Shown here: positions 11,103 through 59,474 of the stretch, in pieces | How the letters are laid out: each line of letters opens with the position of its first letter | Position numbering within the stretch: position 1 is the stretch's first letter | Source: Nocardioides sp. InS609-2 | GTDB taxonomy: Bacteria; Actinomycetota; Actinomycetes; Propionibacteriales; Nocardioidaceae | Assembly: GCF_023208195.1 (NCBI RefSeq) | Contig: NZ_CP060034.1 | Span: 186,001-250,000, forward strand | Reading direction: 5' to 3' | Length of the DNA stretch: 64,000 nucleotides | The notes under the pieces: generated by a model | What the model saw: the letters and a program-made list of their open reading frames with translations, nothing else | Databases searched by the model: none | What the model was told of the DNA's origin: nothing | Translations under genes and position numbers: made by a program

Positions 11103-11121
11103 CCCGGCCCACGAGGGCCTG

Positions 11122-12089: not shown

Positions 12090-12094
12090 CAGTC

Positions 12095-12734: not shown

Positions 12735-12764
12735 CTCAGTTGTCGGCTTCGGTCGGCAGAACAT

Positions 12765-12838: not shown

Positions 12839-12867
12839 CCAGGTCGCCCGACCTTCACACGGGCACT

Positions 12868-12940: not shown

Positions 12941-13067
12941 CTGGTCCACAGATCGCCAGGAGGGAGAGCGACCGGTCCGGCACCGCACACGGTGACAGCA
13001 CCATGCTCGCCGTGTCCGGCAGCACTCAGCAGAAGCACCCAGCGCCCATGAAGGAGGCGAACAGCCA

Positions 13068-31762: not shown

Positions 31763-31801
31763 GGGTCAAGGGGTCGCAGGTTCAAATCCTGTCAGCCCGA
31801 C
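31763..31801 (+). repeat. att copy 1: 39-bp tRNA 3' half (direct repeat with 57862-57900)
   Basis: Contains a complete T arm (GCAGG-TTCAAAT-CCTGT) and the 3' acceptor strand CAGCCCG-A, preceded by GGGTCAAGGGGTC, as in the 3' half of an actinobacterial tRNA, probably tRNA-Pro(GGG). No 5' half precedes it. All 39 bp are identical to 57862-57900. Typical duplicated attachment core of a tyrosine integrase. Confidence 0.85.
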
Positions 31802-34018: not shown

Positions 34019-34021
34019 TAG
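32924..34021 (+). CDS. IS630-family transposase
   Basis: 365 aa. N-terminal helix-turn-helix of the homeodomain-like type (ARIVLLAADGVPNDQICELV), then the DDE catalytic triad in VLCVDEKSQIQALDR, HLVMDNYAAHKH and SWMNLVEVWFSLIERQ. Full length. Its TAG stop is made of the TA target duplication and the next host base, so termination depends on the insertion site. Confidence 0.9.
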   Translation: MANRPAPALVLRDGDRDKLERLTRSSTVSVGAAQRARIVLLAADGVPNDQICELVGCGRQKVLQWRGRYQGKGMAGLLDRQRPGRPRTIDHRKIVAETLKPPPKKLGVTHWSTRLLAARLKVSAYTVAEAWRSYGVKPWRSESFRFSTDPELEAKVIDIVGLYLNPPENAIVLCVDEKSQIQALDRTMPVLPMQPGLVERRSHDYVRHGTTTLFAALDIATGQVTAALKPRHRHQEFLAFLKQVERAYRHVLDEAGAPVELHLVMDNYAAHKHANVKNWLIENPRFKIHFTPTHASWMNLVEVWFSLIERQAIRRGVFTSVKDLNTKIRTYIDCWNERSHPFVWTRTADEILTKANRMKTSNPDH

Positions 34022-37998: not shown

Positions 37999-38458
37999 GG
38001 TCGCGTGCTGCTGAAATCTGCGTGGTCGATCCGGGTGGGATGACGCAATGCGGCCCACTGATCAAGTACGCCGAGGCGGCCGGCATCACCTGTGTGGTCT
38101 TCCTAGACTGCGACGACCAAGGCCGCGAGGATGAAAAGAAGATCCGCAGTTCGGCGATCCGCGTCTGGGCAACCGGTGATCCGGTAAAGGAGGGCGCGCT
38201 CGAAGAGGTGCTCGTCGATCATGACGACGACTGGGTCGTTGCGCGCTGCTCAGAGCATTTGCCGTCGTAGAGGGGTCAGCGCTTGAACGACTGAAACAGT
38301 TGAAAGGAACCTACGGCTCACCGCTGGGTAGAGCGTTCGTCGAAGCCTTCCCAGATCAGACTGCATGGCCCGTAGGCCTGCAGGATCTCGTCAAGGCGCT
38401 GACACCGTCGCGCGCTGACGCAGATGACGAAGGTGGCGAAGGTGGCGAAGGTGCCTGA
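37999..38458 (+). pseudogene. gajA piece 3: TOPRIM core and frameshifted tail
   Basis: GITCVVFLDCDDQGREDEKKI holds the TOPRIM D-x-D. The frame stops at 38268-38270, but homologous-looking sequence (SALERLKQLKGTYGSPLGRAFVEAFPD) continues in another frame to TGA at 38456-38458, overlapping the helicase start. Confidence 0.7.
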
Positions 38459-40202
38459 CGGTGCAGACGTCAACCTCAGCGACGAGCAACGCGCCGCGCG
38501 AGACTGCGACGACCAATACGTCGTTGTCTTGGCCAGCGCCGGAAGCGGCAAGACCGAGGTGGTAGCCCAGCGGGTGGAGCGGATCTTGACCGGCGGCACC
38601 GGGTTCCGAGTCATCGCACTGTCGTACACGCGCAGGGCGGCCGCTGAGTTACGCGATCGATTCGCATCGAGACTCGACGAGGAACATCGGCGCGTCGAGA
38701 CCGACACGCTCCACGGATTCGCTCAGGGCCTGCTCCTGCAGTACGGCACTTGGATAGACCTCCCGGCAGAACCGATCATCGTGGTCGACGACGCCGACCG
38801 CGTCGAGCTGCTCCAGGAGTGGCGGTCGTCGATGGGAATGCCCCTCCTGGACGACCCGAAAGAACAGTTGGCGCGATTGGACCTCGCGAGGGCCAGAGGG
38901 GAGGACGACCCAATCGCGGAGGACTGGGATACTGCGCTAACCGAGGCTGGCGCACTGGACTATGAAGCGATGCTCGCTCGAGCGAAGGAGTTACTAGACG
39001 TCCCAGCGGTGGCCAGGTTGGTCGCTCGCGTGTTCCGCCACGTGATCGTGGATGAGGCCCAGAACCTCACGGCATCGCAGTACGAATTCCTTAAGCAACT
39101 ATTCCTCGCAGGACGCGACGTGTCACACGTGATGCTGGTGGGTGACGATAAACAGTCGATCGTAGGCTTCGCGGGCGCTAGTCCCCAATACTTGCATGAG
39201 TTCGAGCGCGACTTTAGCGCAACGGTCTTCCGGCTAACCCAGAACTTTCGGTCGGCAGCTGACATCGTCACTCTCGGCGACCGGATCGCGGCTGCGCTCG
39301 GTGACCCACCGTCTACGTCGGAGAATTATGCCGCCCGGGGCAGCGTGGGGAGGATGAACTACACAGATGAGCGAGCCGAGGCTATTGGCATCTCCGAGTG
39401 GGTGAGTCACCTACTGGCCGACGGTCTCCCTTCCGCGGCGCTCGCCCCTGGCGAGGACCCTACGATTCGAGCCGAAGACATCGCCGTGCTCGGACGGACA
39501 GCCTCGAGCCTTCGAGCTTCCCAGGCTGCTCTAGAAAGCGCCGGCCATACCGTCGCGGTAGCCACCCACGCGGACGACTGGCTAGGTTCTGACGTCGCCC
39601 GGTCCGCGTGGCTCTTGGCCACTTTCAGGCCAGATTCCGCCGTGTCGCGTCGCCGGATTCAGCGCGAGTTGTCAGTAGATGCGGGCAGTAGAGACTCAGC
39701 CCGCGACTCACTGTCGGGATCTCACGCTGAGGAGTTGCGTGAGTTCGCCGCTCCACTCAGCCCACAAGAGTTTGTAATCCAGATCGAGACACTCGACGTC
39801 CATGATGATGAGTTCTGGGCGAGGGACCAGGCAGAGATCTTGTCCGTCTGGAAGAACTTCTGCGATCGCGCTCCACAGACCGACCGATCCTGGCCTCAGT
39901 TCGAACTGTTCGTCGCCAGGTGGCAGCGCGGAGATGGCCAAGGTGTTGGTGTTCGGCTGCACACAGTTCATAAGGCGCAAGGGCGCGAGTACAAGGCCGT
40001 CGCGGTGATCGGCCTGAATGACGGACAGTTCCCGGACTTCAGGGCCCGGACCGCGAAGGACCTCGAGGCTGAGTTGCGGGCGTTCTACGTAGCTGTCACA
40101 CGGCCCAGTCGTGCGCTGCTACTCACGAGACCGGAAAGGATTCAAACCCGAAACGGGCCGTGGGCGCGTCCAGCATCACGCTTTCTTGAGTATGTCGGCT
40201 AG
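38424..40202 (+). CDS. gajB: UvrD/PcrA-like SF1A helicase (GajB-like)
   Basis: 592 aa. Motif Ia region VVVLASAGSGKTEVVAQRV (Walker A ~36-44), motif II VIVDEAQNLTASQYEFL (~207), motif III MLVGDDKQSIVGFAGA, motif IV/V LTQNFRSAADI and LHTVHKAQGREYKAVAVIGL, motif VI RAFYVAVTRPSRALLLT. All helicase motifs are present. The ATG lies within the last codons of the restored gajA, as in a coupled operon. An IS630 sits inside the TAG stop codon, but the stop is regenerated, so the protein is complete. Without GajA it is an orphan. Confidence 0.88.
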   Translation: MTKVAKVAKVPDGADVNLSDEQRAARDCDDQYVVVLASAGSGKTEVVAQRVERILTGGTGFRVIALSYTRRAAAELRDRFASRLDEEHRRVETDTLHGFAQGLLLQYGTWIDLPAEPIIVVDDADRVELLQEWRSSMGMPLLDDPKEQLARLDLARARGEDDPIAEDWDTALTEAGALDYEAMLARAKELLDVPAVARLVARVFRHVIVDEAQNLTASQYEFLKQLFLAGRDVSHVMLVGDDKQSIVGFAGASPQYLHEFERDFSATVFRLTQNFRSAADIVTLGDRIAAALGDPPSTSENYAARGSVGRMNYTDERAEAIGISEWVSHLLADGLPSAALAPGEDPTIRAEDIAVLGRTASSLRASQAALESAGHTVAVATHADDWLGSDVARSAWLLATFRPDSAVSRRRIQRELSVDAGSRDSARDSLSGSHAEELREFAAPLSPQEFVIQIETLDVHDDEFWARDQAEILSVWKNFCDRAPQTDRSWPQFELFVARWQRGDGQGVGVRLHTVHKAQGREYKAVAVIGLNDGQFPDFRARTAKDLEAELRAFYVAVTRPSRALLLTRPERIQTRNGPWARPASRFLEYVG

Positions 40203-43954: not shown

Positions 43955-45103
43955 TCACCGAAGGGCATCGCTCAGCACCTGCATCGCGGCCACGCTGATG
44001 TCGGGGGAGACGTGTCCGTAGATGTCGCCGGTGATGCTGATCGAGGAGTGGCCCAGGATCTCCGAGACCACCTTGAGCGGGACGCCGTTGGCGAGCATGG
44101 TGCTGGCGGCGGAGTGGCGGAGGGTGTGAAGGCCGATGCTGCCAAGGCCCGCCTGGTCGGCCGCCACCTTGAGCGCCCGGAGCGCGTTGCGAGGGTCGCA
44201 GGGCTCGCCGAACGCGGTGGTGAAGACGTAGCCCTTCTCGTTCCATTGCGAGCTGGCCCGGTCACGTTCGGCGACCTGACGCGCACGCAGCTCCTGGAGG
44301 ATGGCGGCCGTGCGGTCGGTAATCGGCACCTCGCGGCGGGACTTCGCGGTCTTGGTGCTTGTGATCACGAGCTCGCCGTCCTCGCGCGTCAGGGTGCCGC
44401 GGATCTTGAGCCAGCCGTCGTCCTCCTTGACGTGACTGCGCCACTTGAGCGCGAGCGCCTCACCGCGGCGGAGGCCAGTGTTGACCAGGAACTCGAAGAG
44501 CAGGCCGTAGCGGGTACCGCTGGCCGCTTCGAGCAGGCTCTTCACCTGCTCAGGAGTGAGGTACTCCGCCTCCTTCACCTCGACTCGGGGACGCGGGACC
44601 GCAGCCACGGGGTTGTCGGCAAGCTCGCGGTCCTTGACGGCAGCGTCGAAGACAGCGCGCAGGATTGTGTAGGCGTTGCGCCGGGTGGAGTCGCTGAGGC
44701 CCTTGCGGCGTAGTTCCGCCAGCCAGCCGTCGACCGCGCTTGGCCGCACCCGGTGCATCGGCGTTGCGCCGAGCGGGCTGCCGATGATGTGGTGGCGGGC
44801 GACCGCGGCGTACATCGACTTGGTGCTCGTCTTGCGGTCCGAGTTCGCCAGGGTCGTCTCGATCCAGGTCTGGGCGTACTGATCGACGAGCTGGCGAGTG
44901 TCGCTGGCCGGCAGCTCCTTCTTCAGCCTGGCTCGGACCTCCTCTGCCTTCACTCGGGTCTCCTTGGCCGTTGGTCCGGTGACCGTCACGCGCTTGCGGA
45001 CGCCGTAAACGTCGGTGTGGCGGATCAGGATCTGCCATCGACCGTCCTTGCGCTGCACAGGTCGGGATCCCTCGCCGTTCGCGCGTCGAGTCGGTGTAGT
45101 CAT
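43955..45103 (-). CDS. int: Tyrosine recombinase/integrase of block 2
   Basis: 382 aa phage-type integrase. An N-terminal arm-binding domain (about 5-50, GRWQILIRHTDVYGVRKRV) is followed by a SAM-like core-binding domain. The catalytic residues are in NTGLRRGEALALKW (Arg), LHTLRHSAASTML (H-x-x-R) and LGHSSISITGDIYGH (His...Tyr). ATG at 45103 is chosen because the upstream extension is out of character. It lies mid-island, not beside either att copy, and its excisionase candidate is 1.6 kb away at 46693. Confidence 0.88.
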   Translation of the reverse strand: MTTPTRRANGEGSRPVQRKDGRWQILIRHTDVYGVRKRVTVTGPTAKETRVKAEEVRARLKKELPASDTRQLVDQYAQTWIETTLANSDRKTSTKSMYAAVARHHIIGSPLGATPMHRVRPSAVDGWLAELRRKGLSDSTRRNAYTILRAVFDAAVKDRELADNPVAAVPRPRVEVKEAEYLTPEQVKSLLEAASGTRYGLLFEFLVNTGLRRGEALALKWRSHVKEDDGWLKIRGTLTREDGELVITSTKTAKSRREVPITDRTAAILQELRARQVAERDRASSQWNEKGYVFTTAFGEPCDPRNALRALKVAADQAGLGSIGLHTLRHSAASTMLANGVPLKVVSEILGHSSISITGDIYGHVSPDISVAAMQVLSDALR

Positions 45104-45235
45104 GGACCTAGGGTATGACCCCTTGACCGCTGCGATGGCAGACGCCGAGGGGGCTGTGGACAAGGAGTCCCTTCCTTCGCGGCCCATCGGTGGGAGACTG
45201 TTGGCGAAGGCTCGACGATGCGTCAGGAGGCAGCA

Positions 45236-45541
45236 ATGGCAGGACCGCTCGCGCTCGATCGCCCCGCGATCGAGGCGCTCTGTCGGAAGTACGCCGTGCG
45301 TCGCCTCCTGCTGTTCGGCTCCGCCAGTACGAACCGTTTCGACGAGGCGACCAGCGACGTCGACTTCCTTGTCGAGTTCGAGGACGCACTCGGGAGCCGC
45401 TTCGATGCCTACTTCGGCCTCAAGGAGGGCCTTGAGGCGCTCTTCGGGCGCCCGGTCGACCTCGTCTCGGCGGCTGCCCTGGAGAACCCGTACTTCGCGA
45501 AGTCCCTCGCCAGCACCAGTCGAGAGCTGTATGCAGCCTGA
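45236..45541 (+). CDS. mntA: MNT-type nucleotidyltransferase antitoxin (MntA-like)
   Basis: 101 aa minimal nucleotidyltransferase with the GSx10DxD signature, FGSASTNRFDEATSDVDFLVEF (residues ~26-46). In the known HepT-MntA pairs this enzyme adds AMP to a Tyr of the HEPN toxin and so silences it. ATG at 45236 has CAGGAGG 5 nt upstream. Overlaps the toxin gene by 11 bp. Confidence 0.85.
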   Translation: MAGPLALDRPAIEALCRKYAVRRLLLFGSASTNRFDEATSDVDFLVEFEDALGSRFDAYFGLKEGLEALFGRPVDLVSAAALENPYFAKSLASTSRELYAA

Positions 45542-45872
45542 GTCGCCGGCGCTGATCTGGGACGCCCGCCGAGCGGCAGGTCGCGTCCTCGAGTTCGTGG
45601 CAGACCGGAACTGGGACGACTACCAGCAAGATGTCATGCTCCGTTCGGCAGTCGAGCGCCAGTTTCAGATCATCGGCGAGGCGCTCAACCGGCTCCGCAA
45701 GGTCGATCCAGACACCGCGGGTAGGGTCCCGGAGCTCGCCAGGATCGTCGCCTTCCGCAACGTGCTGGTGCACGGCTACGCGCAGATCGACGACGCGCTC
45801 GTCTGGGAAGTCGCGTCGACGCGGGTCCCGGCCCTGTCGGATGTGCTGGCCGGACTCTTGGATGACCCGTAG
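45531..45872 (+). CDS. hepT: HEPN toxin (HepT-like, DUF86)
   Basis: 113 aa, all helical. The Rx4H RNase motif is FRNVLVHGY (residues ~77-85), and the Tyr that follows is the residue modified by MNT antitoxins in characterised pairs. Probable ribonuclease that cleaves tRNA or mRNA when released. Overlap with the antitoxin gene implies translational coupling, and the pair may stabilise the island. Confidence 0.87.
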   Translation: MQPESPALIWDARRAAGRVLEFVADRNWDDYQQDVMLRSAVERQFQIIGEALNRLRKVDPDTAGRVPELARIVAFRNVLVHGYAQIDDALVWEVASTRVPALSDVLAGLLDDP

Positions 45873-47278: not shown

Positions 47279-50200
47279 ATGACGGAACCGGATGCCGTGT
47301 CCGTCGAGCCGCTTGCCAGCCCCATCATCAACACGCCCTACGCCGTCCCGAGTCGTCACTTCGAGATCGGCCCCACCGGACCGAAAGCGATTATCGAGTC
47401 GCGTCGGCCGAGCGAGTCCTACATTCCGGTCGCCCCCGTCCGTAAGGGCCGCACCCGTGGCGCAGACCGCACCGTGCAAGAGACACTGCCGCTCACCCAC
47501 GAGCAGGTCGTCAAGAACACCCTGATCGACGAGCTGCGCGGTGAGGTCGCGGTCTGGCGCAACCGGCGGTACGACGGGGTCACACCGATCTCCCGCAAGC
47601 TGCTGGAGCACTGGGCCGACCCCGATCGGGACAACCGGGTCCTCTTTGCCCAGCGCGAGGCCGCCGAGACAGCGATCTTCCTGGCCGAGGTGAGCGGCCG
47701 CAAGACGTCGTACGGTGTGATCCGCGACTGGCGCACCGAGCTGGGCGAGATCAACGACGAGCACAACGCCGGCCTGCCGCGCGTGGCGCTCAAGATGGCG
47801 ACCGGATCGGGCAAGACGGTCGTGATGGCCATGCTGATCGCCTGGCACACACTCAACAAGGTGACCAGCCCGCGCGACGCCCGCTTCGTCCGTCGTTTCC
47901 TCGTGATCACTCCTGGCATCACGATCCGGGACCGACTTCGGGTGCTGCAGCCGAGCGACCCGGGCAACTACTACGACCTGCGCGACCTCATCCCGCCCGA
48001 CCTGCGCGGCCAGCTCGGCAAGGCGCAGATCCTGATCACCAACTACCACGCCTTCCTGCCGAAGGACTCCCGTGAGATCAAGGGAGTCTCCATCACGACG
48101 CGCAGAATCCTCACGCAGGGCAGGAACGACCCTTTCAGGGAGACCGAGCCGGCAATGGTGGCTCGAGTCCTCCGGGGCTGGGGAGTCGGTAGCGGACGTC
48201 GACAGAGCGACATCCTGGTCCTCAACGACGAAGCCCATCACTGCTACGTCAACAAGCCGATCAGTCTCGATGACGAGGTGGAGGAGGGTGACAAGGAGGA
48301 CGAGTCGCGCAACCTCGATGCTCGCAAGTGGTTCACCGGGATCCAGGCGATCTCCCGGGTCGTGGGGGTCAAGCAGGTCTACGACATGAGCGCCACGCCC
48401 TTCTACCTCGCCGGATCGGGCTACAAGGAAGGGTTCATCTTTCCTTGGGCGGTCAGTGACTTCTCACTGATGGACGCGATCGAGTCCGGCATCGTCAAGG
48501 TGCCGCGGATTCCGGTCGATGACGACGCGGCCCACGAGGCGGTCACTTACCTGAACCTGTGGGAGTCCGTAGGGAAGCCCGGCGTCCTGCCAAGGCGAAA
48601 CCGCAAGGATCTCGACGTCGCCAGCTGGGTGCCACCCGACGAGCTAATCGGGGCCCTGCGCAGCCTGTACCGCTCCTACGAGCGCGAGTTCGCGCATTGG
48701 GACCGGGAGCTACGCCCGCTGGGGCACACCCCACCGGTCTTCATCGTGGTCTGCCCCAACACTGCCGTCTCGAAGCTGGTCTACGACTGGGTCGCCGGCA
48801 CCGACCTCGCACGGGACGACGGCAGCGTCGTCACCTCGCCCGGTAATCTGCCGCTCTTCGACAACTATCGCGACGGCATCGCCCTGGCTCGGCCGCGAAC
48901 GATCTTGGTTGACTCGGCCCAGCTCGAGTCCGGCGAGAGCATGAAGAGGGACTTCAAGGAGGCTGCGGCCGCCGAGATCGAGGCGTTCAAGACCGAGCTG
49001 CGCGTGCGCAATCCCGGCGCAGACGTAGATGACATCACTGATGAGGACCTGCTGCGTGAGGTCATGAACACCGTCGGCAAGGCTGATCGGCTCGGTGAGC
49101 AGGTGCGGTGCGTGGTCTCGGTCGCGATGCTCACCGAGGGGTGGGACGCCAACACCGTCACTCACATTCTCGGAATCCGTGCCTTCAAGAGCCAGCTCCT
49201 GTGCGAGCAGGTCGTGGGACGTGGGCTGCGGCGCCGCTCCTACGACGTGAACGAAGACGGGTTCTTCGAACCGGAGTACGCCGCGGTCTATGGAGTGCCG
49301 TTCGCGTTCATCCCGACCGACCGCCCAGCGATTGAACCGAAGCCACCCCGTCCCTCCACCCTGGTCCGCACCATTGAGGGGCGCGAGGCACTGCGCATCA
49401 CGTGGCCAAACCTCACGGGCTACCGGCTCGAGCTCCTCGATGACCCGATGTGGCTCTCCGACGACGTTTCGCGATTCGTGATCGGGCCGGGCACCGTGCC
49501 GACCTGGACCGAGGCCGCTCCGGTTGTGGGCGAGAGCGAACGTGTCGAGGACGCACCCGAGGTGCAGCGAGCAGCCGAGGTGGCATTCCGTCTGGCCGCC
49601 CGACTGGTCAGGACGCACTTCACGGCCGACGAGGACGATCCTCGTCCGTGGCTCTTTCCGGAGCTGGTGCGGATCTGCCGTGAGTGGATCGACCGTGCGG
49701 TCATCGTCGAGGCGGGCTTCGAGCTCAGCTATCTGACGCGCTTCGTCTCCTGGCAGGCACGCGCCGCGGACGCGGTCTACCAGGCCGTGATTCGCCAGGA
49801 GAACAATCGGACGGCCCGGCTGCGCCCGATGCTGCGCCCGTTCGACCCGGAGGGCTCAACGGCAGCGGTAGCGTTCCACAGTCGCAAGGTCGCGATCGTC
49901 ACCGATCCCGACCGCTGCGAGATCAGCCACGTAGTGCTCGACGGATCGGGCGCCGATGGGGGCAACACATGGGAGCAGCTGATGATGGCCTACGCCGAGG
50001 CACACCCTCGGGTGGCTGCGTACGTGAAGAATGACCACCTCGGCTTCTCGATCCCGTACGTGCATCAGGGGCGCAGCCACGACTACGTGCCCGACTTCCT
50101 CCTGCGTCTGCGACGCGCAGGCGATGAAGCATTTGACCGCACTCTGGTGGTGGAGGTCTCCGGCGCGCAGAAGCGCGTGCACTCGCCTCTGTCGTCGGAC

Positions 50201-50407
50201 GCCAAGGTCGCAGTCGCACGCGATGCCTGGTGCGTGGCCGTCAACAACCACGGCGGCTTCGGACGGTGGGGCTATCTGGAGGTCACCGAGATGCCCACGC
50301 TCAAGCGGACCCTCGACACTGCCATCCAGACGCTCTACGACGATGGCCCGATCACCGGGGACGTCGACGGCTTCGAGTTCAGCAACGATGACGAAGGGAC
50401 CGGCTGA
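47279..50407 (+). CDS. SF2 helicase-nuclease, BPTD_3080-type restriction endonuclease (Res-like)
   Basis: 1042 aa. Walker A LKMATGSGKTVVMAMLI (~168), DExH motif VLNDEAHHCY (~313), motif III YDMSATPFYLAGSG, and motifs V-VI MLTEGWDANTVTHILGIR...EQVVGRGLRR (~610-655). Near the C-terminus DYVPDFLLRLRR...RTLVVEVSG (~935-960) is a PD-(D/E)xK nuclease-like core. This is the architecture of type III restriction (Res) subunits. ATG at 47279 is chosen for GGGAGAGG 6 nt upstream. Its TGA overlaps the methyltransferase ATG (TGATG). Confidence 0.85.
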   Translation: MTEPDAVSVEPLASPIINTPYAVPSRHFEIGPTGPKAIIESRRPSESYIPVAPVRKGRTRGADRTVQETLPLTHEQVVKNTLIDELRGEVAVWRNRRYDGVTPISRKLLEHWADPDRDNRVLFAQREAAETAIFLAEVSGRKTSYGVIRDWRTELGEINDEHNAGLPRVALKMATGSGKTVVMAMLIAWHTLNKVTSPRDARFVRRFLVITPGITIRDRLRVLQPSDPGNYYDLRDLIPPDLRGQLGKAQILITNYHAFLPKDSREIKGVSITTRRILTQGRNDPFRETEPAMVARVLRGWGVGSGRRQSDILVLNDEAHHCYVNKPISLDDEVEEGDKEDESRNLDARKWFTGIQAISRVVGVKQVYDMSATPFYLAGSGYKEGFIFPWAVSDFSLMDAIESGIVKVPRIPVDDDAAHEAVTYLNLWESVGKPGVLPRRNRKDLDVASWVPPDELIGALRSLYRSYEREFAHWDRELRPLGHTPPVFIVVCPNTAVSKLVYDWVAGTDLARDDGSVVTSPGNLPLFDNYRDGIALARPRTILVDSAQLESGESMKRDFKEAAAAEIEAFKTELRVRNPGADVDDITDEDLLREVMNTVGKADRLGEQVRCVVSVAMLTEGWDANTVTHILGIRAFKSQLLCEQVVGRGLRRRSYDVNEDGFFEPEYAAVYGVPFAFIPTDRPAIEPKPPRPSTLVRTIEGREALRITWPNLTGYRLELLDDPMWLSDDVSRFVIGPGTVPTWTEAAPVVGESERVEDAPEVQRAAEVAFRLAARLVRTHFTADEDDPRPWLFPELVRICREWIDRAVIVEAGFELSYLTRFVSWQARAADAVYQAVIRQENNRTARLRPMLRPFDPEGSTAAVAFHSRKVAIVTDPDRCEISHVVLDGSGADGGNTWEQLMMAYAEAHPRVAAYVKNDHLGFSIPYVHQGRSHDYVPDFLLRLRRAGDEAFDRTLVVEVSGAQKRVHSPLSSDAKVAVARDAWCVAVNNHGGFGRWGYLEVTEMPTLKRTLDTAIQTLYDDGPITGDVDGFEFSNDDEGTG

Positions 50408-52218
50408 TGCCACCCCGCAAGAGGGCGAGCGGCCCTACGCCGATCGACTCGATCAAGCATGGTGACAAGCGGGCCAACTTGCCCACGGCCGACGCACAAG
50501 AGTTCGTGACGCCCCAGGTCGAGGAGGCCCGCCAGATCTTGGTGCAACGCAACCCGAGCCTCGATCCGCAGCTGGTATGGCGCGGCAAGTACGGGGACGA
50601 GTTGCCTGCCTCCATCGAAAACGCCTCCGCTCTCCAAGCGGACGCACCACCGATCTACATCCAGGAGAAGATCGACCCTCAGGTCCTGGTAGAGAATCTG
50701 CGACGGACCGCAGCCAGGCCGGAGGACGAGCCAGAGCTCACCCTCTTCGACACCTTCGACGGGCTCGACGAGCTCGACTTGGTCGACTTTTATCAACACC
50801 AGTCGAACTGGTCGAACCGGATGATCCTCGGCGACTCGCTCCAGGTCATGGGATCACTCGCCGACCGCGAAGAACTGCGCGGTCAGATGCAGATGATCTA
50901 CCTGGACCCGCCCTATGGCATCAAGTTTGGCTCGAATTGGCAGGCCTCGGCGCGAAAACGCGACGTGAAGGACGGAAAGGTCGAGGACGCAGCCCGCGAG
51001 GCTGAGCAGATTAAGGCGTTCCGTGACACCTGGGAGCTGGGCATTCACTCCTACCTCTCCTACCTCCGCGACCGACTCTTGGTCGCCCGTGAACTGCTCA
51101 CCGAGTCGGGCTCCTGTTTCGTGCAAATCGGCGACACCAACCTGCATCTTGTCCGGAGTCTGATGGACGAGGTGTTCGGGTCCGAGAACTTTGTCAGTCA
51201 GGTCTCGTTCCGGACAACCACCGGTGCGACCGCCGACTTTCTGGCTGGCACGGTCGACTTCGTGCTGTGGTTTGCCAAGGACCGAGAGAACACGAAGTAC
51301 AGGCCGCTGTTTCGGGCCAAGGCAGTCGGCGGACTGGGAAGCGGCGCATACGGGTACGTAGATGCGCCTGATGGTCGCCGGCGGCTTACCAAGGAGGAGA
51401 AGCGCAAACCGGATGCCGCGATGGCCGCAGGGCGCGTCTTTCGGCTCGACAATCTCACCAGCCAAAGCGCAGGCAGGGAGAAGGGCGAGGGCGCAGCATC
51501 ATGGTTTCCGGTCGCATTCGACGAACGGGTGTTTCGACCAACCGCGCAGAGTCGCTGGAAGACAAACGCTCCCGGGATGGAGCGACTTCTGCGTGCTAGG
51601 CGTTTGGGCGTAGCCGGCAACACCCTGTCTTACGTCCGCTATATCGATGACTTTCCGGCTTTCCCGATCAACAATTTCTGGGACGACACCTCGACGGCTG
51701 GGTTCGCCGCAGACAAGTTGTACGTCGTTCAGACCAACAGCAAGGTCATCGAGCGCTGCCTGCTGATGTGTACTGATCCGGGCGACCTGGTGCTTGACCC
51801 CACTTGCGGTAGCGGCACCACGGCGTACGTGGCCGAGCAGTGGGGACGCCGCTGGATCACCGTGGACACCTCGCGCGTCGCACTCGCGCTCGCTCGCCAG
51901 CGATTGATGGGGGCGAAGTTCCCTTACTACTTGCTCGCCGACTCCGACAAGGGCCGGACGAAGGAGGGCGAGCTGGCTGGTAGGCCGCTGCCACCCGCGC
52001 CGCTGACGAACGACATCCGGCACGGCTTCGTTTATGAGCGAGTCCAGCACATCACACTGAAGTCGATTGCCAATAACCCTGACATACAGGAGGGGATGAG
52101 TCGCGAGGAGATCGACTTGCCATCAAGCGACATGCAGACTTCGAGACGCTCTATGACCGGCCCTACGAGGACAAGAACGCAGTGCGCGTCACCGGTCCCT
52201 TCACCGTCGAGTCTCTAA
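50407..52218 (+). CDS. Type III Mod-like DNA adenine methyltransferase, catalytic part (frameshifted at the end)
   Basis: The frame gives 603 aa, but the last ~35 codons are not real. DPPY motif MIYLDPPYGIKFGSNW (~160) and SAM motif VLDPTCGSGTTAYVAEQWG (~460) are in the beta-class order, with the target-recognition region between them. After REEID (near 52115) the homologous sequence moves to another frame (LAIKRHADFETLYDRPYEDK) and runs into the next ORF. Full-length Mod would be about 910 aa (50407-53138). Partner of the Res-like gene directly upstream. Confidence 0.8.
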   Translation: MPPRKRASGPTPIDSIKHGDKRANLPTADAQEFVTPQVEEARQILVQRNPSLDPQLVWRGKYGDELPASIENASALQADAPPIYIQEKIDPQVLVENLRRTAARPEDEPELTLFDTFDGLDELDLVDFYQHQSNWSNRMILGDSLQVMGSLADREELRGQMQMIYLDPPYGIKFGSNWQASARKRDVKDGKVEDAAREAEQIKAFRDTWELGIHSYLSYLRDRLLVARELLTESGSCFVQIGDTNLHLVRSLMDEVFGSENFVSQVSFRTTTGATADFLAGTVDFVLWFAKDRENTKYRPLFRAKAVGGLGSGAYGYVDAPDGRRRLTKEEKRKPDAAMAAGRVFRLDNLTSQSAGREKGEGAASWFPVAFDERVFRPTAQSRWKTNAPGMERLLRARRLGVAGNTLSYVRYIDDFPAFPINNFWDDTSTAGFAADKLYVVQTNSKVIERCLLMCTDPGDLVLDPTCGSGTTAYVAEQWGRRWITVDTSRVALALARQRLMGAKFPYYLLADSDKGRTKEGELAGRPLPPAPLTNDIRHGFVYERVQHITLKSIANNPDIQEGMSREEIDLPSSDMQTSRRSMTGPTRTRTQCASPVPSPSSL

Positions 52219-53138
52219 GCCCGCACCGCTCCCTCGCGTTTGCTGGTGGCTCCTACGCAGATGTCGCGCACCGCGAGACGATCAGCGAGCAGAACGGCGC
52301 CCAGCAGCCAGACGCAGCCAACTTTGAGCAGTCCATCCTCGACAACCTCGCCCGCGCCGGAGTGCAGAACGGACGCCGCGACGAGCGCATCGAGTTCGCG
52401 TCCACCGAGCCGTATGCCGGCACCTTCATCCAGGCGTTGGGGGAGGCAAAAGACGGGACGAGGATCGGGGTCGCCATCGGGCCGCAGTACGGCACAGTGA
52501 GCCAGCGCTTCGTCAAGGAGGCGGCGCGCGAGGCGATCGCTGAGGGCAGCATCGATCTGCTCTGTCTATTGGGCTTCGCTTTCGACGCGACCGCCGGCGA
52601 AGTAACCGGCGACGACAATGTCACCGTCGACACCAGCCGCGATGGCTTCGCCAGCGTCGCCGGCGAGCGCAACCTCGGCCGGATCAAGGTGCTGATGGTG
52701 CGGATGAACGTCGACCTACTCATGGGGGAGGACCTCAAGAAGACCGGTGCCGGCAATCTCTTTACTGTCTTCGGCGAGCCCGATCTTCGAATCGAGACCA
52801 CTGACGACGAGGTCGTCGTGCATCTCAACGGCGTTGACGTCTACGACCCCACCACCGGCCAGGTCCGCAGCAACGACCCTGACCAGATCGCGCTGTGGAT
52901 GATCGACACCGACTACAACGGCGACAGCTTCTTCGTCCGGCACTGCTACTTCACTGGTGGCAACGACCCTTACAAGCGGCTCAAGACCGCCCTCAAGGCC
53001 GAGATCGACGCCGACGCCTGGGCCAGTCTGTACTCCACCGACTCCCGCCCCTTCCCCAAGCCCGTCAGCGGCAAGATCGCCGTCAAGGTCATCAACGACT
53101 ACGGCGATGAAGTGATGAAGGTCTTTGAGGTGGAGTGA
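52182..53138 (+). CDS. C-terminal domain of the split Mod-like methyltransferase
   Basis: 318 aa from GTG. It begins VTGPFTVESLSPHRSLAF, the sequence that normally continues a BPTD_3080-associated Mod protein, and ends NDYGDEVMKVFEVE. In-frame homology extends upstream to about 52116. A frameshift, not a normal gene border, separates it from the catalytic part. Whether it is translated separately is unknown. Its TGA overlaps the next ATG (TGATG). Confidence 0.75.
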   Translation: MRVTGPFTVESLSPHRSLAFAGGSYADVAHRETISEQNGAQQPDAANFEQSILDNLARAGVQNGRRDERIEFASTEPYAGTFIQALGEAKDGTRIGVAIGPQYGTVSQRFVKEAAREAIAEGSIDLLCLLGFAFDATAGEVTGDDNVTVDTSRDGFASVAGERNLGRIKVLMVRMNVDLLMGEDLKKTGAGNLFTVFGEPDLRIETTDDEVVVHLNGVDVYDPTTGQVRSNDPDQIALWMIDTDYNGDSFFVRHCYFTGGNDPYKRLKTALKAEIDADAWASLYSTDSRPFPKPVSGKIAVKVINDYGDEVMKVFEVE

Positions 53139-53896
53139 TGTCACCAGCCGGCCGAGCCAAACCCACCGCGCTACAGGCGTTCGAAACGAACGTTGCGGAC
53201 GCGCGGCACCTGGTCGGTATCGCCCAGGCAATGACCAATACCCGTGCACGGCGAATGAGACGCGAGCTGCGCGACAAGGTGGGAGAAGCGCTGGGCGTTC
53301 CTGTCAAGCAGCGCGACTCCCTTGACTGCCTGCAAAGCGACCACCTCTTCGTGACGTTCATGCCTGGCGCGGGGTTGAGCCGATCTGACTTCGATGATGC
53401 TCGGCCACTCCTCAGGCAAGCGTTAGTCGCCGCTTGCGCCGCAGGTGAGACGTTTTTGGCCGACCGTGCGATGGAACGTGTCGGCCCGCTGTTGAGCGCG
53501 CAACAGTCGACGGCCCGTCTTCGCGGGATACCTATGAATCTCGGTTGTTGGCTGGAGATCGACGCGCGTTACGAACGCAAGAAGTGGGGTCTGCGCGGCT
53601 TGGTGATCGAGCCGTACATTCGGCAGGAGGCCAGTACCGATCCAACCAAGGTCGGGTTCATCCTGAGCTTGCTCGGGGTCGAGTCACCGATGAACAAGTT
53701 GGACAACGCCCGCGGCGTGTCGAAGGGCGAGACCAAGGCGTTCCTGGAGCAGCTCACGCAACGGCGCAACAAGATCGCGCACGAGGGCGACCGGGTCGGC
53801 CGCGGCCGTGCGGCGCTCACGTCATCCGAAGTTCTTGCTGACCTTGAAAAGCTCACGTCGGTGGTCGAGGCAATCCAGAAGGTGACACAGCCTTGA
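53138..53896 (+). CDS. HEPN-domain protein (RiboL-PSP-HEPN-like)
   Basis: 252 aa. The C-terminal helical domain has LTQRRNKIAHEGDRVG (~205-220), the R-x4-6-H motif of HEPN ribonucleases of the RiboL-PSP type. The N-terminal half is helical without other motifs. Coupled to the methyltransferase by TGATG overlap, so it belongs to the restriction operon. It may be the RNA-targeting effector of the system, or a structural HEPN (inference). Confidence 0.7.
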   Translation: MSPAGRAKPTALQAFETNVADARHLVGIAQAMTNTRARRMRRELRDKVGEALGVPVKQRDSLDCLQSDHLFVTFMPGAGLSRSDFDDARPLLRQALVAACAAGETFLADRAMERVGPLLSAQQSTARLRGIPMNLGCWLEIDARYERKKWGLRGLVIEPYIRQEASTDPTKVGFILSLLGVESPMNKLDNARGVSKGETKAFLEQLTQRRNKIAHEGDRVGRGRAALTSSEVLADLEKLTSVVEAIQKVTQP

Positions 53897-53966
53897 GGAG
53901 CCACGAATGGCGGGGCTGTTCTGTGCAGGCAGCCCACGACGCAAGCCTACTTAGGGAGAGTCCTGC

Positions 53967-56900
53967 ATGAGCACCGTGCAACATATCTCGATGCGGGTCC
54001 CGTGGCGCGATCAGCCGTGGGACGACAAAGTGTGCGCGCACCCCTTGGACAACAGTTCTTGCTTGCTTCTCAAGAACATCGGCGACAAGCGGCTCGACGA
54101 CTGGGAAGAATCGGTAGCCGGCAAGTCCTTCGCGGAACTGCAGCAGTACGAACGACTGGCCTGCCTATCGGAACGCGGGACCTTCATGTCCTCACACGGT
54201 TACGCACTCGAGAAGGAGCATCCGTACCGGTTCAACAAGGCCCTCAAGAGTCACCTTAAACCCACGACGGTCTCGGTGGCGCCGTACTCTTTTGAGGCGG
54301 TCCCGTTCCGTTGGCTGAGCCGGGAAACCGTCGACGCTGAGTTATGGCAGGACGCCGATGACTACCGTCCCGATCGTGAGGACTTCGCGAACCAGATACT
54401 GGGATTCACGCCCGGCTGGCTGATGGACGGGCGAAACCAGCGCGCCTTGATCGGTCGCTTCTTCGAGGATGTGGTCGCCGGTCAGAGCCTTGTCCTGATC
54501 TACCTCAAGCACTCGCCGCTGCAGGAGGAGTCGACTCGACGACTGCTCGTGGGAGCGGCCGATGTGACTCGGGTGAAGTCGCCACCCGTGTGGAATCAGT
54601 CAGGGGGTCAGCCGTTCGATTCGTCGATGTGGGAGACGATCGTCAGCCACAGCCTACGTCCCGACCAGAAGCACGGACTGCTGTTGCCTTACCAGGAACT
54701 CGTGCCGCTGCTTGATGCCGGTCAAGACGTTGGGGGTGCGCTCGCGTGGGCGCCCGAAGACGCCAACGTCGAGTTCTCCTATGTGACTGAACACGTGTCC
54801 AATGACACCACGATCGCCGCTCTTAACGCCATACGGTCCGCCGCCGATGGTATGACCGCTCTCGGCATCGCGGTGCCTGCGTCGGCCACCTCATGGGTCG
54901 ACAAACAAATTGAACGGCTCTGGCATCTCAGAGGACCGGCCCCCGGCATGTCGGCAGCTCTGGGATACCTCGGCGCCGAGTCCGCGCATCGAGTCGTGCG
55001 CCGACTGACCGACGAGCCCGAATGGAGTCGCGATCCCTGGGGTGTAGTGGAGCGTGCTTTGGATCGGAAGGACCCACTCGGGCAAGAGCTCGCTGCGCAG
55101 CTGCCGGCGTCGATCGGCAACACCTGGCGGGGCACGGACACGGACGAGCAGAATGCGCTCAAGATTCTCTCGGCGATGGACATCGGCCGTGAGCAGGTCG
55201 CCGACCTGCTGGGCGGCAAGTCCACCTGGCAAGTCACTCCGGCCGAGCTCGTCGAGAACCCATACTTCGCAGCCACGTGCACATACCGGTCACCGCAACC
55301 GATCGCCTTGGCCACCGCCGATCAGGCGTGCTTCCCAGCCGGCCATGTTCAGTGGGTAAACCTCATCTCCGACCTGATCGGGCTCGACGACCCGGGCGAT
55401 GCACGTCGGGTCGAAGCGCTCATGGTCGACGTCCTCGAACGACTGGCTGAAGAAGGCGACACGATCGTGGGCGAGCCGCAGGTATTGACCGCCGCAGCGG
55501 CGATCCCCCTGACCCGACCGTGTCCCGTCTCGCGGTCACTGCTCGCCACCTACTCGTTGGACGCCCCGAACTTGTCGGGCTACGCGCACTGGACTCCCCT
55601 GGTCGGGGCCGAGCTCGACGGGGGACTGCCCGCATACAAGCTCGAGCACCCGCATGCGGCCGGGCTCGATATCTCCGAGCACCTGCGCGAGCGACGCTCA
55701 GCCCGCCGTTTCGACGCCGACTTCGACCCACGAGCGGCCATCGACGCCGGCTTCGGAGTTGCAGATCCTAACGACACCGAGGAGGAGCTCGCCCGCACCG
55801 AGAAGGCAGCCGGCCTCCACGAACTCTTCGCCTCCCGCCTCTCGGTACTCGTCGGCCCCGCGGGTACAGGCAAGACCTCACTGCTCAGCACCCTCGTCGC
55901 ATTGCCCGACATAGCCCAGGACGGCGTCCTGCTGCTCGCCCCGACCGGCAAGGCCCGTGTGCAGCTCCAGTCAAAGGTCAAGCATCCGGCACAGACGCTC
56001 GCCAGCTTCCTGGTGAAGAAGGGCGGCTTCGACCCGAACACCGGTCGCTATCTCGGCGTCGACAAGTCGCGACGAGACCGCTACGGACTCGTCGTCATCG
56101 ACGAGGCCTCGATGCTCACCGAGGAGATGCTCGCTGCGACGCTCAGTGCTCTTGAGGGTGTGAAGCGGTTAATCCTGGTCGGCGATCATCGGCAGCTGCC
56201 GCCCATCGGCCCGGGCCGCCCGTTCGTCGACCTCGTGGAGTGGCTTAAGCCAGCCGCCTTCACCGACACAATTCGCGTGGCCCACGGCTATGTTGAGCTC
56301 ACCGTCTACCGGAGGCAGAAGGGCGAGGAAGGCGAACGTGACGACCTGGCGCTCGCCCGTTGGTTCGGGGGAGAGGACATGCCCGGTGCTGCGGACGACA
56401 TCTGGCAGAAGCTACGCCGTGGCGCGACGTCGGACACGCTCGACTACTTTCCATGGCGAGACGACGGCGTGGTCGCGACGCTCGTCAACGCCTTGGAAGC
56501 AGAGTTCGGCCTTGCCGCTGCCGCCGAAGTCGAGAAGGCATTCAAACTCACTTACGGCGGGCAGCTGTCGCCCGACGGGAAGTGGGTCAACTGGCCGGTG
56601 GGTGATGCCGGCGCGGGAGACCGCTGCGAGGACTGGCAGGTGTTGTCGCCCACCAGGTCACGCGTGTTCGGCACCGTGGAGCTCAACCGCTTCATCAAGC
56701 AGAAGTATCGGGCGGGCGATCTCGCCTGGGCACAGAACAGGTGGGGCCACCGGCCTCCCAAGCCACTCGGCCCCGAGCAGATCGTGCTCGGCGACAAGGT
56801 CATGCAGACAAGAAACGACGGACGGGCCAAGTCCTACCCCGCGAAGTCCGGAATGGACTACGTCGCCAACGGTGAGATCGGGGTGGTCGTCGGTCGTGCG

Positions 56901-57704
56901 AGCAAGGCCCCGACCTACGCGAATGTTGAGTTCTCCTCACAGATCGGTGCCACCTACGGCTACAAGCCGTCGCCTTCGGACGAACCTCCGCTCGAGCTTG
57001 CGTGGGCGGTCACGGTCCACAAGTCGCAGGGCTCCGAGTTCGGTGTCACCTTCCTGGTGCTCCCGTCGCGAGTCGTGGTGAGCCGAGAGTTGCTCTACAC
57101 CGCATTGACCCGACAGACAAAGAAGGTCGTGATCCTCCACGAGGGCTCCGTCGATGAGCTGTTCGCCCTGTCCTCGCCGGCGCTGTCGGAGACTGCTCGA
57201 CGCATGACAGACTTGTTCCGTCCGCCAGCACCCCGAGAGCTCCCCGTTGGTGACGGCATGCGTCGCTTCGACGGGAACCTGATCCATGTCGCTCCTGGCA
57301 GCGTTCTGGTCCGCAGCAAGAACGAAGTGATTGTCGCCTCCATCCTGGAAGACGTCGCATCAGGTCGCTGGACCTACGAGTCATCCCTGACGATCGACGG
57401 AGTCACCAAGTATCCGGACTTCACGATCGAGACGCCATCAGGTGACCAGATCATCTGGGAGCACCTCGGCATGATGGGTAACCCCAAATACGCGAACGAC
57501 TGGGCGGCCAAGAAGCAGTGGTACACCGCGCACGGCTTCCGACCCTACGACGAGCCGAGCACCGAGGGTTCTCGCGGTGTCTTGGTCTGGACAGATGACC
57601 GCGGGGGAGTTGATCAGCCTGCCTGGGCGCAGCTGGCACGCGATGTCATCGGTACCTCCACTCCCAGGCGCGCAGCCAAGAAGGCTTCCGGGAAGCGACT
57701 GTGA
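53967..57704 (+). CDS. RecD-like SF1B helicase fused to a C-terminal nuclease-fold domain
   Basis: 1245 aa. A ~600-residue N-terminal region of unknown fold precedes the helicase: VLVGPAGTGKTSLLSTL (~628), LLLAPTGKARVQL, VVIDEASMLTEEML (~709), ILVGDHRQLPPIGPG, and WAVTVHKSQGSEFGVTFLVLP (~1010) with LLYTALTRQTKKVVIL. The last ~110 residues have VTKYPDFTIETPSGDQIIWE followed by HLG (~1147-1167), a PD-(D/E)xK-like core. ATG has AGGGAGAG upstream. It starts 70 bp after the HEPN gene and closes the cluster. Confidence 0.82.
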   Translation: MSTVQHISMRVPWRDQPWDDKVCAHPLDNSSCLLLKNIGDKRLDDWEESVAGKSFAELQQYERLACLSERGTFMSSHGYALEKEHPYRFNKALKSHLKPTTVSVAPYSFEAVPFRWLSRETVDAELWQDADDYRPDREDFANQILGFTPGWLMDGRNQRALIGRFFEDVVAGQSLVLIYLKHSPLQEESTRRLLVGAADVTRVKSPPVWNQSGGQPFDSSMWETIVSHSLRPDQKHGLLLPYQELVPLLDAGQDVGGALAWAPEDANVEFSYVTEHVSNDTTIAALNAIRSAADGMTALGIAVPASATSWVDKQIERLWHLRGPAPGMSAALGYLGAESAHRVVRRLTDEPEWSRDPWGVVERALDRKDPLGQELAAQLPASIGNTWRGTDTDEQNALKILSAMDIGREQVADLLGGKSTWQVTPAELVENPYFAATCTYRSPQPIALATADQACFPAGHVQWVNLISDLIGLDDPGDARRVEALMVDVLERLAEEGDTIVGEPQVLTAAAAIPLTRPCPVSRSLLATYSLDAPNLSGYAHWTPLVGAELDGGLPAYKLEHPHAAGLDISEHLRERRSARRFDADFDPRAAIDAGFGVADPNDTEEELARTEKAAGLHELFASRLSVLVGPAGTGKTSLLSTLVALPDIAQDGVLLLAPTGKARVQLQSKVKHPAQTLASFLVKKGGFDPNTGRYLGVDKSRRDRYGLVVIDEASMLTEEMLAATLSALEGVKRLILVGDHRQLPPIGPGRPFVDLVEWLKPAAFTDTIRVAHGYVELTVYRRQKGEEGERDDLALARWFGGEDMPGAADDIWQKLRRGATSDTLDYFPWRDDGVVATLVNALEAEFGLAAAAEVEKAFKLTYGGQLSPDGKWVNWPVGDAGAGDRCEDWQVLSPTRSRVFGTVELNRFIKQKYRAGDLAWAQNRWGHRPPKPLGPEQIVLGDKVMQTRNDGRAKSYPAKSGMDYVANGEIGVVVGRASKAPTYANVEFSSQIGATYGYKPSPSDEPPLELAWAVTVHKSQGSEFGVTFLVLPSRVVVSRELLYTALTRQTKKVVILHEGSVDELFALSSPALSETARRMTDLFRPPAPRELPVGDGMRRFDGNLIHVAPGSVLVRSKNEVIVASILEDVASGRWTYESSLTIDGVTKYPDFTIETPSGDQIIWEHLGMMGNPKYANDWAAKKQWYTAHGFRPYDEPSTEGSRGVLVWTDDRGGVDQPAWAQLARDVIGTSTPRRAAKKASGKRL

Positions 57705-57861: not shown

Positions 57862-57900
57862 GGGTCAAGGGGTCGCAGGTTCAAATCCTGTCAGCCCGAC
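57862..57900 (+). repeat. att copy 2: 39-bp tRNA 3' half
   Basis: Identical to 31763-31801. The upstream bases CTGGG extend the match to a tRNA anticodon loop (CTGGGGG, anticodon GGG), supporting tRNA-Pro and a crossover in or next to the anticodon loop. No 5' half is present. Confidence 0.85.
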
Positions 57901-57967: not shown

Positions 57968-59176
57968 CTATTCACCACTTATTCCCAAAGTATTCGGGCC
58001 GGCCTCCGGTTCTGCCTGTGCGAATTCGCCCAGAATGTGCGCGACGTCGGCGGCGATCGCCGGCTTGGAGATGTAGAACTCGCGGGTAATGGCGGGGGAG
58101 GAGTGCCCGAGCTGCTGGGAGGCAGTCTCGGCATCGACCCGCTCGGAGATCAGCGTCGCGACGGTCTTGCGGAACGTGTGAGGCGTGACCCAGTCCAGTC
58201 CGGTTCCCTGGCGAATCTGCCGCCAGCGACGTTCGACATTGTTGACCTGTTGCCAAGTGCCGTTGCGTGTCGGAAACACGGCTTCGTTCGGGTTCTCGCG
58301 CGCTGCCGCCTGACGGCGCTTGAGCATTGCGACGGCGAAGTCCGGAAGGACGACCGTCCTCACGCTGGCGTCCGACTTCGGGCTGGCCTTGCGGTAGGTC
58401 CCCCTGCCCGGCTCGGTCTTGATGGTGCCGTTGATGGTCAGGTTCGGACGGGTGGCCTCGGGCGCGACGTCGACCCAACGCAGGGCGAGGATCTCGCCGA
58501 TCCGCGCTCCGGTGGCCAGCATGAGCTCGATGATGTCGGCCATGTCGGTCGTGGCCTTGGGGCCCGAGCGCTGCGCGGTAGCCCACGCGCAGACGGCCTC
58601 GCGGACCGTGTCCAACTCCTCGAGGGTCAGTGACCGCGGCTCCGACTTCTCCCGGTGGATCCGCGAGGTCTGCTGCACCGGATTCACTGGAAGGGCATCA
58701 TGACGTACAGCAAGGCCAAGCATGGCGCCCAAGACCACCTTGGTCTTGCGCTGGCGGCTTGTACTGATCGCCCGCAGTCGGACGAGGAAGAGGTCGAGGC
58801 GGCCGGTGGTCACCTCCCGTAGTCGCAAGCCGCCCAGCTCGGGGATCACCACCTTCGTGAGGACCCGCTCATACTCGTTGATCGTGGTGGCCTCGATGCG
58901 ATCCTCGTCGCGGAGAAAGGTGAGCCACAGTGTGGCGAGCCTCGCGATCGTGGTGTCGGCCGTGATGCCCTGTTGCGTCGGCGCCTGGCGGTCCACAAGC
59001 TTCTGACGCAGGGCACGCTCCGCAGCCGCGCTGGTGGTTCCGGTTGCCGTGACTTCACGCGTCACCCCGTCCTTGTCCCTGATCCGGGTGCGCGAACGAT
59101 AGGCCCCGTCCCGAACCCTCGTTGTGCGAGTCGTGCCCCAGGTTCCGAGCGCGGTCAGAGGTCGTCCCCGTCCCAT
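57968..59176 (-). CDS. int: Tyrosine recombinase/integrase of block 3
   Basis: 402 aa. The N-terminal arm-binding domain (TRVRDGAYRSRTRIRDKDGV) and SAM-like domain precede the catalytic residues in ATGARIGEILALRW (Arg), TPHTFRKTVATLI (H-x-x-R) and LGHSSPAITREFYI (His...Tyr). Its 3' end is 67 bp from att copy 2, the classic position of an integrase acting on a tRNA site. ATG at 59176 lies 4 bp after the xis stop. Distinct from the integrase at 43955. Confidence 0.9.
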   Translation of the reverse strand: MGRGRPLTALGTWGTTRTTRVRDGAYRSRTRIRDKDGVTREVTATGTTSAAAERALRQKLVDRQAPTQQGITADTTIARLATLWLTFLRDEDRIEATTINEYERVLTKVVIPELGGLRLREVTTGRLDLFLVRLRAISTSRQRKTKVVLGAMLGLAVRHDALPVNPVQQTSRIHREKSEPRSLTLEELDTVREAVCAWATAQRSGPKATTDMADIIELMLATGARIGEILALRWVDVAPEATRPNLTINGTIKTEPGRGTYRKASPKSDASVRTVVLPDFAVAMLKRRQAAARENPNEAVFPTRNGTWQQVNNVERRWRQIRQGTGLDWVTPHTFRKTVATLISERVDAETASQQLGHSSPAITREFYISKPAIAADVAHILGEFAQAEPEAGPNTLGISGE

Positions 59177-59180
59177 GTCG

Positions 59181-59474
59181 TCACCCTGCCTCACGCGGTC
59201 GGCTGGCCCGGGACAGCGAGATGCCATCGTCTACCCGCTGCGCCGGGATAACGCCGAAGTCGTCGAGAGTCTCGACGTGCTCTGCCACCCAGGCGTCGAG
59301 GTCGGCTCTCCGGTAGCGCAGGCAGCCACCGAGCTTGAGCGCGCGGGGACCGAACCCGGGCCGGCGGGTGCGCCATGTGTAGAGAGTCGCCTTGGGGATC
59401 GAGAGGTATGCCGCGGCTTGGTCAATCGTGAGGATGCCGCCGTCCACGGTGGTATCGATCGTCGTGATCATCAT
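59181..59474 (-). CDS. xis: Excisionase-like HTH_17 protein
   Basis: 97 aa. GILTIDQAAAYLSIPKATLYTWRTRRPGFGPRALKLGGCLRYRRADLDAWV is a complete winged-helix excisionase fold. ATG at 59474 has AAGGAG about 7 nt upstream. Operon with the integrase. The promoter should lie in 59475-59663, where no gene is seen. Confidence 0.87.
   Translation of the reverse strand: MMITTIDTTVDGGILTIDQAAAYLSIPKATLYTWRTRRPGFGPRALKLGGCLRYRRADLDAWVAEHVETLDDFGVIPAQRVDDGISLSRASRPREAG

Follow-up and report, generated by a model that had tools for sequence, protein, structure and literature searches.

We describe a cluster of four defense-like genes in a 64,000-nucleotide stretch of the Nocardioides sp. InS609-2 genome (assembly GCF_023208195.1, contig NZ_CP060034.1, positions 186,001 to 250,000; the whole of this stretch is called the window below). 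We propose, with a confidence that falls slightly short of even, that the cluster is a defense cassette of an integrated island, in which a type III-like restriction endonuclease (Res) and methyltransferase (Mod) of the BPTD_3080 family form the core, and a HEPN ribonuclease (RNase) and a RecD-like helicase-nuclease fill accessory positions downstream of Mod. The cluster looks like a modular mix of known defense parts rather than one fixed four-gene system. The initial annotation of this DNA had read the genes as Res, a Mod methyltransferase, HEPN and a 1245-aa RecD-like helicase, in that order, and profile matches bear this order out, with all the genes on the forward strand (ORF, open reading frame; SF1, helicase superfamily 1):

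47279..50407, forward strand: Res, BPTD_3080-family type III-like restriction endonuclease (NF046055.1; Pfam ResIII)
50407..52218, forward strand: Mod ORF 1, methyltransferase of 603 aa with motifs DPPY and DPTCGSG (PDLC03632; Pfam N6_N4_Mtase)
52119..53138, forward strand: Mod C-terminal part, in a different frame from ORF 1 (PDLC03632; listed ORF 52182-53138, 318 aa)
53138..53896, forward strand: HEPN, RiboL-PSP-HEPN protein and predicted RNase, 252 aa (PF18735)
53967..57704, forward strand: RecD-like SF1 helicase, 1245 aa, PADLOC candidate PDC-S68 (PDLC05065; helicase Pfam domains)

Gene arrangement and the Res-Mod core

The genes had been described as mostly coupled by TGATG overlaps, and this holds for two of the three junctions, namely Res/Mod (50405-50409) and the C-terminal Mod frame/HEPN (53136-53140, with the HEPN ATG at 53138), but not for the third, where the HEPN stop (53896) and the RecD start (53967) are separated by a 70-bp gap. 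The RecD start is preceded by a ribosome-binding-like stretch (AGGGAGAG) and lies 828 bp from the Mod stop, on the same strand. A promoter scan found 0 candidates versus 1.0 expected by chance, and a terminator scan found 8 versus 6.0 expected.

Res scores 1089 bits against NF046055.1 (cut-off 800), which places it in the BPTD_3080 family, and it lies next to a Mod gene, as type III restriction-modification (R-M) requires. It has the motifs of a superfamily 2 (SF2) helicase (Walker A ATGSGKT and a DEAH box) and a nuclease-like C-terminal end, PD...EVSGxxK, that is kept in all 12 sequences aligned; the Res-like helicase with a PD-(D/E)xK end that was first noted is therefore confirmed, in the form of this variant. 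A sequence search of the PDB with Res returned no relative at an E value of 0.01, and the name BPTD_3080 was not found in open-license PubMed Central (PMC) papers.

Mod is not the single gene frame that had been assumed, because two ORFs in different frames both match the 983-position profile PDLC03632 (645 bits over profile positions 75-590 for ORF 1, and 269 bits over positions 674-983 for the second). The motifs DPPY and DPTCGSG both fall within ORF 1, which matches the Mod subunit of EcoP15I in the PDB (4zcf, E 3.7e-13). Six intact relatives (ORFs of 901, 885, 970, 903, 910 and 906 aa, from six of the 13 Res loci described below) align in one frame as far as 52116 and pass to the next frame at 52119, with one residue skipped in each, and the signal of GC content at third codon positions switches to the second frame at about 52100. 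Over its 340 C-terminal codons the gene is open and shares 57-72% identity with the six relatives, which points to either a recent shift or an assembly error. With no simple repeat at the frameshift or anywhere else in Mod, phase variation of the classical kind is unlikely; no slippery heptamer was noticed at the shift by eye. Split Mod genes at other loci were considered as parallel cases and set aside (the gene in L122 is split at a run of N, those in L121 and L123 change frame at other points of Mod, and L127 is broken in Res, Mod and its UvrD gene alike). The split suggests that the present copy is weakened and may not restrict now; unless HEPN and RecD act alone, its restriction is probably poor or absent. 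Given the frameshift, HEPN can be translationally coupled to Mod only if the second frame is translated.

The HEPN and RecD proteins

The 252-aa protein contains HEPN as the sole domain found with Pfam, scoring 31.2 bits against PF18735 (gathering score 28.4). The RNase motif of HEPN proteins is R-x4-6-H, and R209, R210, N211 and H215 are invariant in 22 sequences (motif R210-x4-H215), which upholds the description of this gene as encoding a HEPN protein with an RNase motif. Its predicted structure has a mean predicted local distance difference test score (pLDDT) of 90; Foldseek with this model gave no match at an E value of 0.001, and the best rows of VIA-align were HEPN proteins. PADLOC profiles assigned the protein to no family (best E 0.065), and a sequence search of the PDB gave none at an E value of 1.

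RecD matches PDLC05065 (PDC-S68) with 1404 bits over nearly its full length (residues 2-1228 on profile positions 3-1219 of 1221). A second, nuclease-like domain had been noted in it, and the alignment agrees: E1120, D1151, E1165 and K1182 of this C-terminal PD-(D/E)xK-like domain are identical in 57 of 57 sequences. A predicted model of the C-terminal part alone had a mean pLDDT of 43 and was left unused. PDC-S68, whose S we take to mark a single-gene candidate, was not found named in open-license PMC papers. A single-protein query with RecD found none in viral contigs; for HEPN, viral contigs contained one distant match, phages none, and plasmids one, in a neighborhood lacking Res, Mod and RecD.

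A partly recurring layout downstream of Mod

Outside the window we found 13 loci with Res over the cut-off (three Res fragments with no Mod found beside them, L051-L053, were excluded). Mod is present at all 13; it adjoins Res at 12 of them and lies about 8 kb off at the other. Nine of the 13 have, downstream and on the same strand, a gene for a UvrD helicase with a PDDEXK_1 nuclease (broken in one case, L127; the calls rest on Pfam for L048 and L121 and on tblastn for the rest), and two of the four loci lacking it end at a contig or fetched-stretch end. The view of ordinary type III systems as Res and Mod only thus fits this Res family poorly. The excerpted text of PMC5704561, a 2017 phylogenomic study of Cas4 family nucleases, similarly has UvrD-Cas4 fusions most commonly adjoining type III Mod and Res. 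Among open-license PMC papers, the name UvrD-Cas4 was found in one. In the window, the place of an SF1 helicase-nuclease downstream of Mod on the same strand is taken by RecD, of a family that differs from UvrD-Cas4.

Other genes directly after Mod include an EcsC-like gene (PDC-S29) in L047, a 615-aa gene with weak HEC-07/NsnC matches in L049, a 182-aa gene with a YhcG nuclease gene behind it in L050, and genes of 314 aa and 275 aa in L142 and L146, respectively. Of 38 plasmid records matched by ModC, we examined nine (picked by identity and to avoid duplicates, hence a non-random sample; the L142 stretch is shown without Res). Two have a UvrD-type helicase after Mod, one has phospholipase and cyclase genes of CBASS (cyclic oligonucleotide-based antiphage signaling system), one the unassigned 314-aa gene, and five nothing coupled. 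The CBASS genes (L144, 7939-10447, a Methylomagnum plasmid) begin 17 bp past the Mod of a BPTD_3080 system. Both UvrD-type helicases are annotated as 3'-5' exonucleases, and no nuclease domain was found in them; we considered those of L145 and L146 as NERD fusions and rejected this, the PADLOC match covering the helicase part of the profile only and Pfam showing no nuclease. HEPN and RecD therefore occupy positions where some other members of the family have different accessories and different SF1 helicases. PDC-S39 (DUF4209) genes stand just before Mod in two unrelated hosts (L123, 15639-17660, and L142, 1-1848, the latter with a 29-bp overlap).

Distribution of the genes in other genomes

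The four genes had been proposed to be a co-conserved system, and we evaluated this on genomes from the same order and class. Among 391 order-level genomes, RecD occurs in six, Res in nine (six over the cut-off) and HEPN in two, and the genome of the window is the only one with more than one of the three; among 394 class-level genomes, Res occurs in 10 and RecD in eight, overlapping again only in that genome. These counts rest on Res, HEPN and RecD for the order and on Res and RecD for the class, with Mod not searched on its own, and RecD was counted in the 391 genomes at 930 bits or more (any helicase match would give 372/391; the match in G082 covers positions 447-1219 only).

Neighborhoods gave the same answer. 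Neither this Res nor this Mod occurs, within the DNA examined, at any of 34 HEPN genome loci (about half of them distant, and several examined with shortened flanks) or at any of 16 other RecD loci (10 genomes, five plasmid records and one Serinicoccus locus), and the 13 other Res loci have neither this HEPN nor this RecD; weak partial RecD matches in L066 and L092 were taken as other proteins. A conserved system, with all four genes in several genomes, is accordingly rejected: within these samples, HEPN and RecD occur without the Res/Mod pair, which is the outcome that the initial annotation had itself named as refuting the exact set.

Parts of the arrangement do recur. RecD lies directly behind a different type III Mod-Res in L056 (genome G240; 74% identical) and faces a type III Mod-Res in L057 (G055). 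In Serinicoccus kebangsaanensis (L060), RecD (38% identical) is directly upstream of HEPN (53%), with a 4-bp overlap. In a genome of the same genus (G132), HEPN starts at -4 bp behind a DrmMI/type IIG-like methylase (L096, 8994-19929), in an operon that also has a DpdE/DrmD-like helicase and a helicase with an MrfA zinc-binding domain, and in an Acidimicrobiia genome (L065, 107-10756) HEPN lies at +14 bp among relatives of the L096 genes (by BLAST only). At all three of these loci, HEPN thus starts between -4 and +14 bp from the end of a large gene (RecD in L060, and the same methylase family in L096 and, by BLAST, L065).

Weak hints come from record lengths compared by eye among the 120 matches listed for each family (120 of 251 for HEPN). 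Mod P0243 (80% identical) and RecD P0122 (88%) are both from records whose longest contig is 12,988 bp, and for HEPN P0032 and RecD P0196 the longest contig is 14,184 bp in both cases, with two contigs each. Such matches may arise by chance; none between HEPN and Mod was seen among those listed.

Two further RecD neighborhoods are recorded here in their own right. In two genomes (L056, 8289-17446, and L108, 8384-17634), RecD recurs in a trio with a DrmD-like helicase and a protein of 672-686 aa that is weakly GajB-like, and the RecD-HEPN pair of L060 (1985-10750) lies about 1.1 kb past a type I-like restriction subunit gene.

The host island

The cluster is the right end of a 26-kb island between exact tRNA-Pro repeats (the 30-bp core of these repeats is expected 0 times by chance):

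31763..31801, forward strand: left island boundary, 39-bp copy of the 3' end of tRNA-Pro(GGG) (30-bp core exact, 39 bp by eye)
43955..45187, reverse strand: tyrosine integrase of the island (Pfam Phage_integrase)
57862..57900, forward strand: right island boundary, a 39-bp copy identical to the left one and beginning 158 bp past the RecD stop

An intact tRNA-Pro(GGG) gene is at genome positions 167919-167994 and a further 39-bp copy (97% identity) at 297872, so that several elements seem to have integrated in tandem at one tRNA-Pro. To the right of the cluster, a second element seems to begin, with an integrase (57968-59227), an excisionase-like helix-turn-helix gene and, about 54 kb on, another att-like copy.

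The island has other defense-like genes, as well as transposase genes. Gabija-like genes (31630-32961, 32924-34021 and 38424-40202) include a GajB-like UvrD helicase of 592 aa and a GajA-like ATPase that matches the first third of its profile only and runs into a transposase gene. At 45218-45872, nucleotidyltransferase and HepT-like HEPN genes lie side by side, likely as an MntA-HepT toxin-antitoxin pair, which brings the HEPN families in the island to two. Outside the island, eleven tRNA genes occupy 3.7 kb (9287-12941).

Interpretation and alternative explanations

If the four genes act together, the likely course is that Mod would mark self DNA, Res with Mod would cut unmarked incoming DNA, and RecD would unwind and degrade DNA from the ends so made; HEPN would be kept inactive by the restriction proteins and cut RNA once these are blocked or overwhelmed, in the manner of PrrC with EcoprrI. 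We infer every biochemical step, and take any cooperation of HEPN and RecD with Res-Mod from gene position only; a joint function of the four genes is unproven. The layered response suggested at the outset is possible in the light of the recurring layout of core, accessory and SF1 helicase, of RecD beside other type III Mod-Res pairs (L056, L057) and of HEPN coupled to other methylase and helicase operons; the frameshift in Mod, though, suggests that the present copy may not restrict now. Several observations weigh against the cassette as we propose it. Besides the split Mod and the uncoupled HEPN-RecD junction, 11 of the 22 other loci (13 genome, 9 plasmid) have no recognized SF1 helicase downstream (among the 11, L123 and L125 end at the fetch or contig end, and L141 has an unassigned 1361-aa gene not scanned), RecD is mostly alone or with other partners at other loci, and 14 of 17 other close HEPN relatives have no coupled upstream gene of at least 1000 aa (the HEPN start not being resolved in L071 and L073). 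These 17 are 15 of the 34 genome loci (L059-L071, L073 and L074) plus L005 and L096; the distant matches were left out, as was L072, where the contig ends and HEPN is followed, 45 bp on, by the start of a helicase gene.

Because RecD is mostly alone or in other company, HEPN and RecD may be here by island clustering only, and the cluster would then be a plain defense island in which Res-Mod, HEPN and RecD/PDC-S68 are three independent stacked modules acting separately. We give this a little less than an even chance, about as likely as a joint mechanism. It accords with the solitary position of the window's genome among the 391 order and 394 class genomes (HEPN counted in the order only) as the one in which at least two of Res, HEPN and RecD co-occur, with the 34/34 HEPN loci and 16/16 RecD loci that lack this Res/Mod, and with the Gabija-like genes and the MntA-HepT-like pair elsewhere in the island; it does not account for the overlap of HEPN with the C-terminal Mod frame, the placing of RecD at the usual helicase-nuclease position of this Res family, or the renewed adjacency of HEPN and RecD in Serinicoccus. 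That adjacency, with its 4-bp overlap, would be expected if HEPN and RecD were a two-gene module of their own, a helicase-nuclease with an RNase effector standing beside the Res-Mod pair, and the shared 14,184-bp longest contig of HEPN P0032 and RecD P0196 hints at a third case. We consider such a module improbable, since this HEPN is at only two of 17 RecD loci (the window included) and the order of the two genes is reversed between the window and Serinicoccus; as a hint only, the 12,988-bp longest contig shared by Mod P0243 and RecD P0122 has no HEPN counterpart among the 120 of 251 matches listed.

It is also conceivable, though unlikely, that the cassette is decaying, the frameshift having turned restriction off and the set now being lost, as the Gabija-like genes of the island may be. 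The shift in Mod, with neither a simple repeat nor a noticed slippery heptamer, and the truncation of the GajA-like ORF next to a transposase gene would agree with decay. Against this, the Mod frames are open bar one shift and well matched to the six relatives, Res, HEPN and RecD are all open, and the shift could be an assembly error.

The cassette proposed here could be one instance of a more general arrangement, in which BPTD_3080 Res-Mod serves as a chassis and the position after Mod as a slot for exchangeable effectors: SF1 helicases (UvrD-Cas4, other UvrD, and RecD/PDC-S68) and effectors (HEPN, YhcG, EcsC-like and CBASS proteins) would be coupled to the core, and restriction would both cut DNA and license a second, swappable response. 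We offer this tentatively and hold it to be rather doubtful. Both CBASS and type III CRISPR are defenses with interchangeable effectors; if the slot is real, type III-like restriction would join them, and the unassigned genes after Mod (the 615-aa, 314-aa and 275-aa proteins among them) would become testable defense candidates. If it is not, the case shows how islands stack autonomous modules that resemble one operon.

Comparison with known systems

The cluster had not been recognized as a characterized system. Its combination of genes, and any paper on this gene set, were indeed not found in the open-license PMC literature; parts of it are described under other names (PDC-S68, UvrD-Cas4 beside Res/Mod, and HEPN in R-M loci). 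Like the EcoP15I type of type III R-M, it has an SF2-helicase Res and a Mod whose ORF 1 matches that of EcoP15I; unlike that type, the Mod relatives are of about 900 aa with a long C-terminal part, and the Res end is the EVSGxxK variant. The intact Mod frame of a type III system is replaced here by two ORFs. The closest published arrangement is type III R-M with UvrD-Cas4, as given in the excerpts of PMC5704561, where Res and Mod are likewise joined by an SF1 helicase-nuclease gene; here, by contrast, the helicase is RecD-like (PDC-S68), a HEPN gene lies in between and Mod is frameshifted. RecD resembles PDC-S68 over nearly its whole length, and that PADLOC entry has no described function; in the window it follows a restriction core.

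HEPN genes in R-M neighborhoods were proposed in 2013 to be a further line of defense, and the survey, whose text lacks the name RiboL-PSP, links in the portions consulted at least 16 HEPN clades to R-M and proposes that they are held inactive and freed when restriction fails (PMC3710099). PrrC with EcoprrI is, in the excerpt of PMC12707154, the tested example of such guarding, and the window shares with it a HEPN RNase gene within a restriction locus as a proposed second line of defense (PMC3710099, PMC12707154, both in part). It is not of the PrrC-EcoprrI type, which combines an ATP-binding cassette (ABC) ATPase fused to HEPN with a type I hsd locus: whereas PrrC has an ABC ATPase domain and belongs to a type I system, the protein described here is a single-domain, 252-aa RiboL-PSP-HEPN that follows a type III-like Mod.

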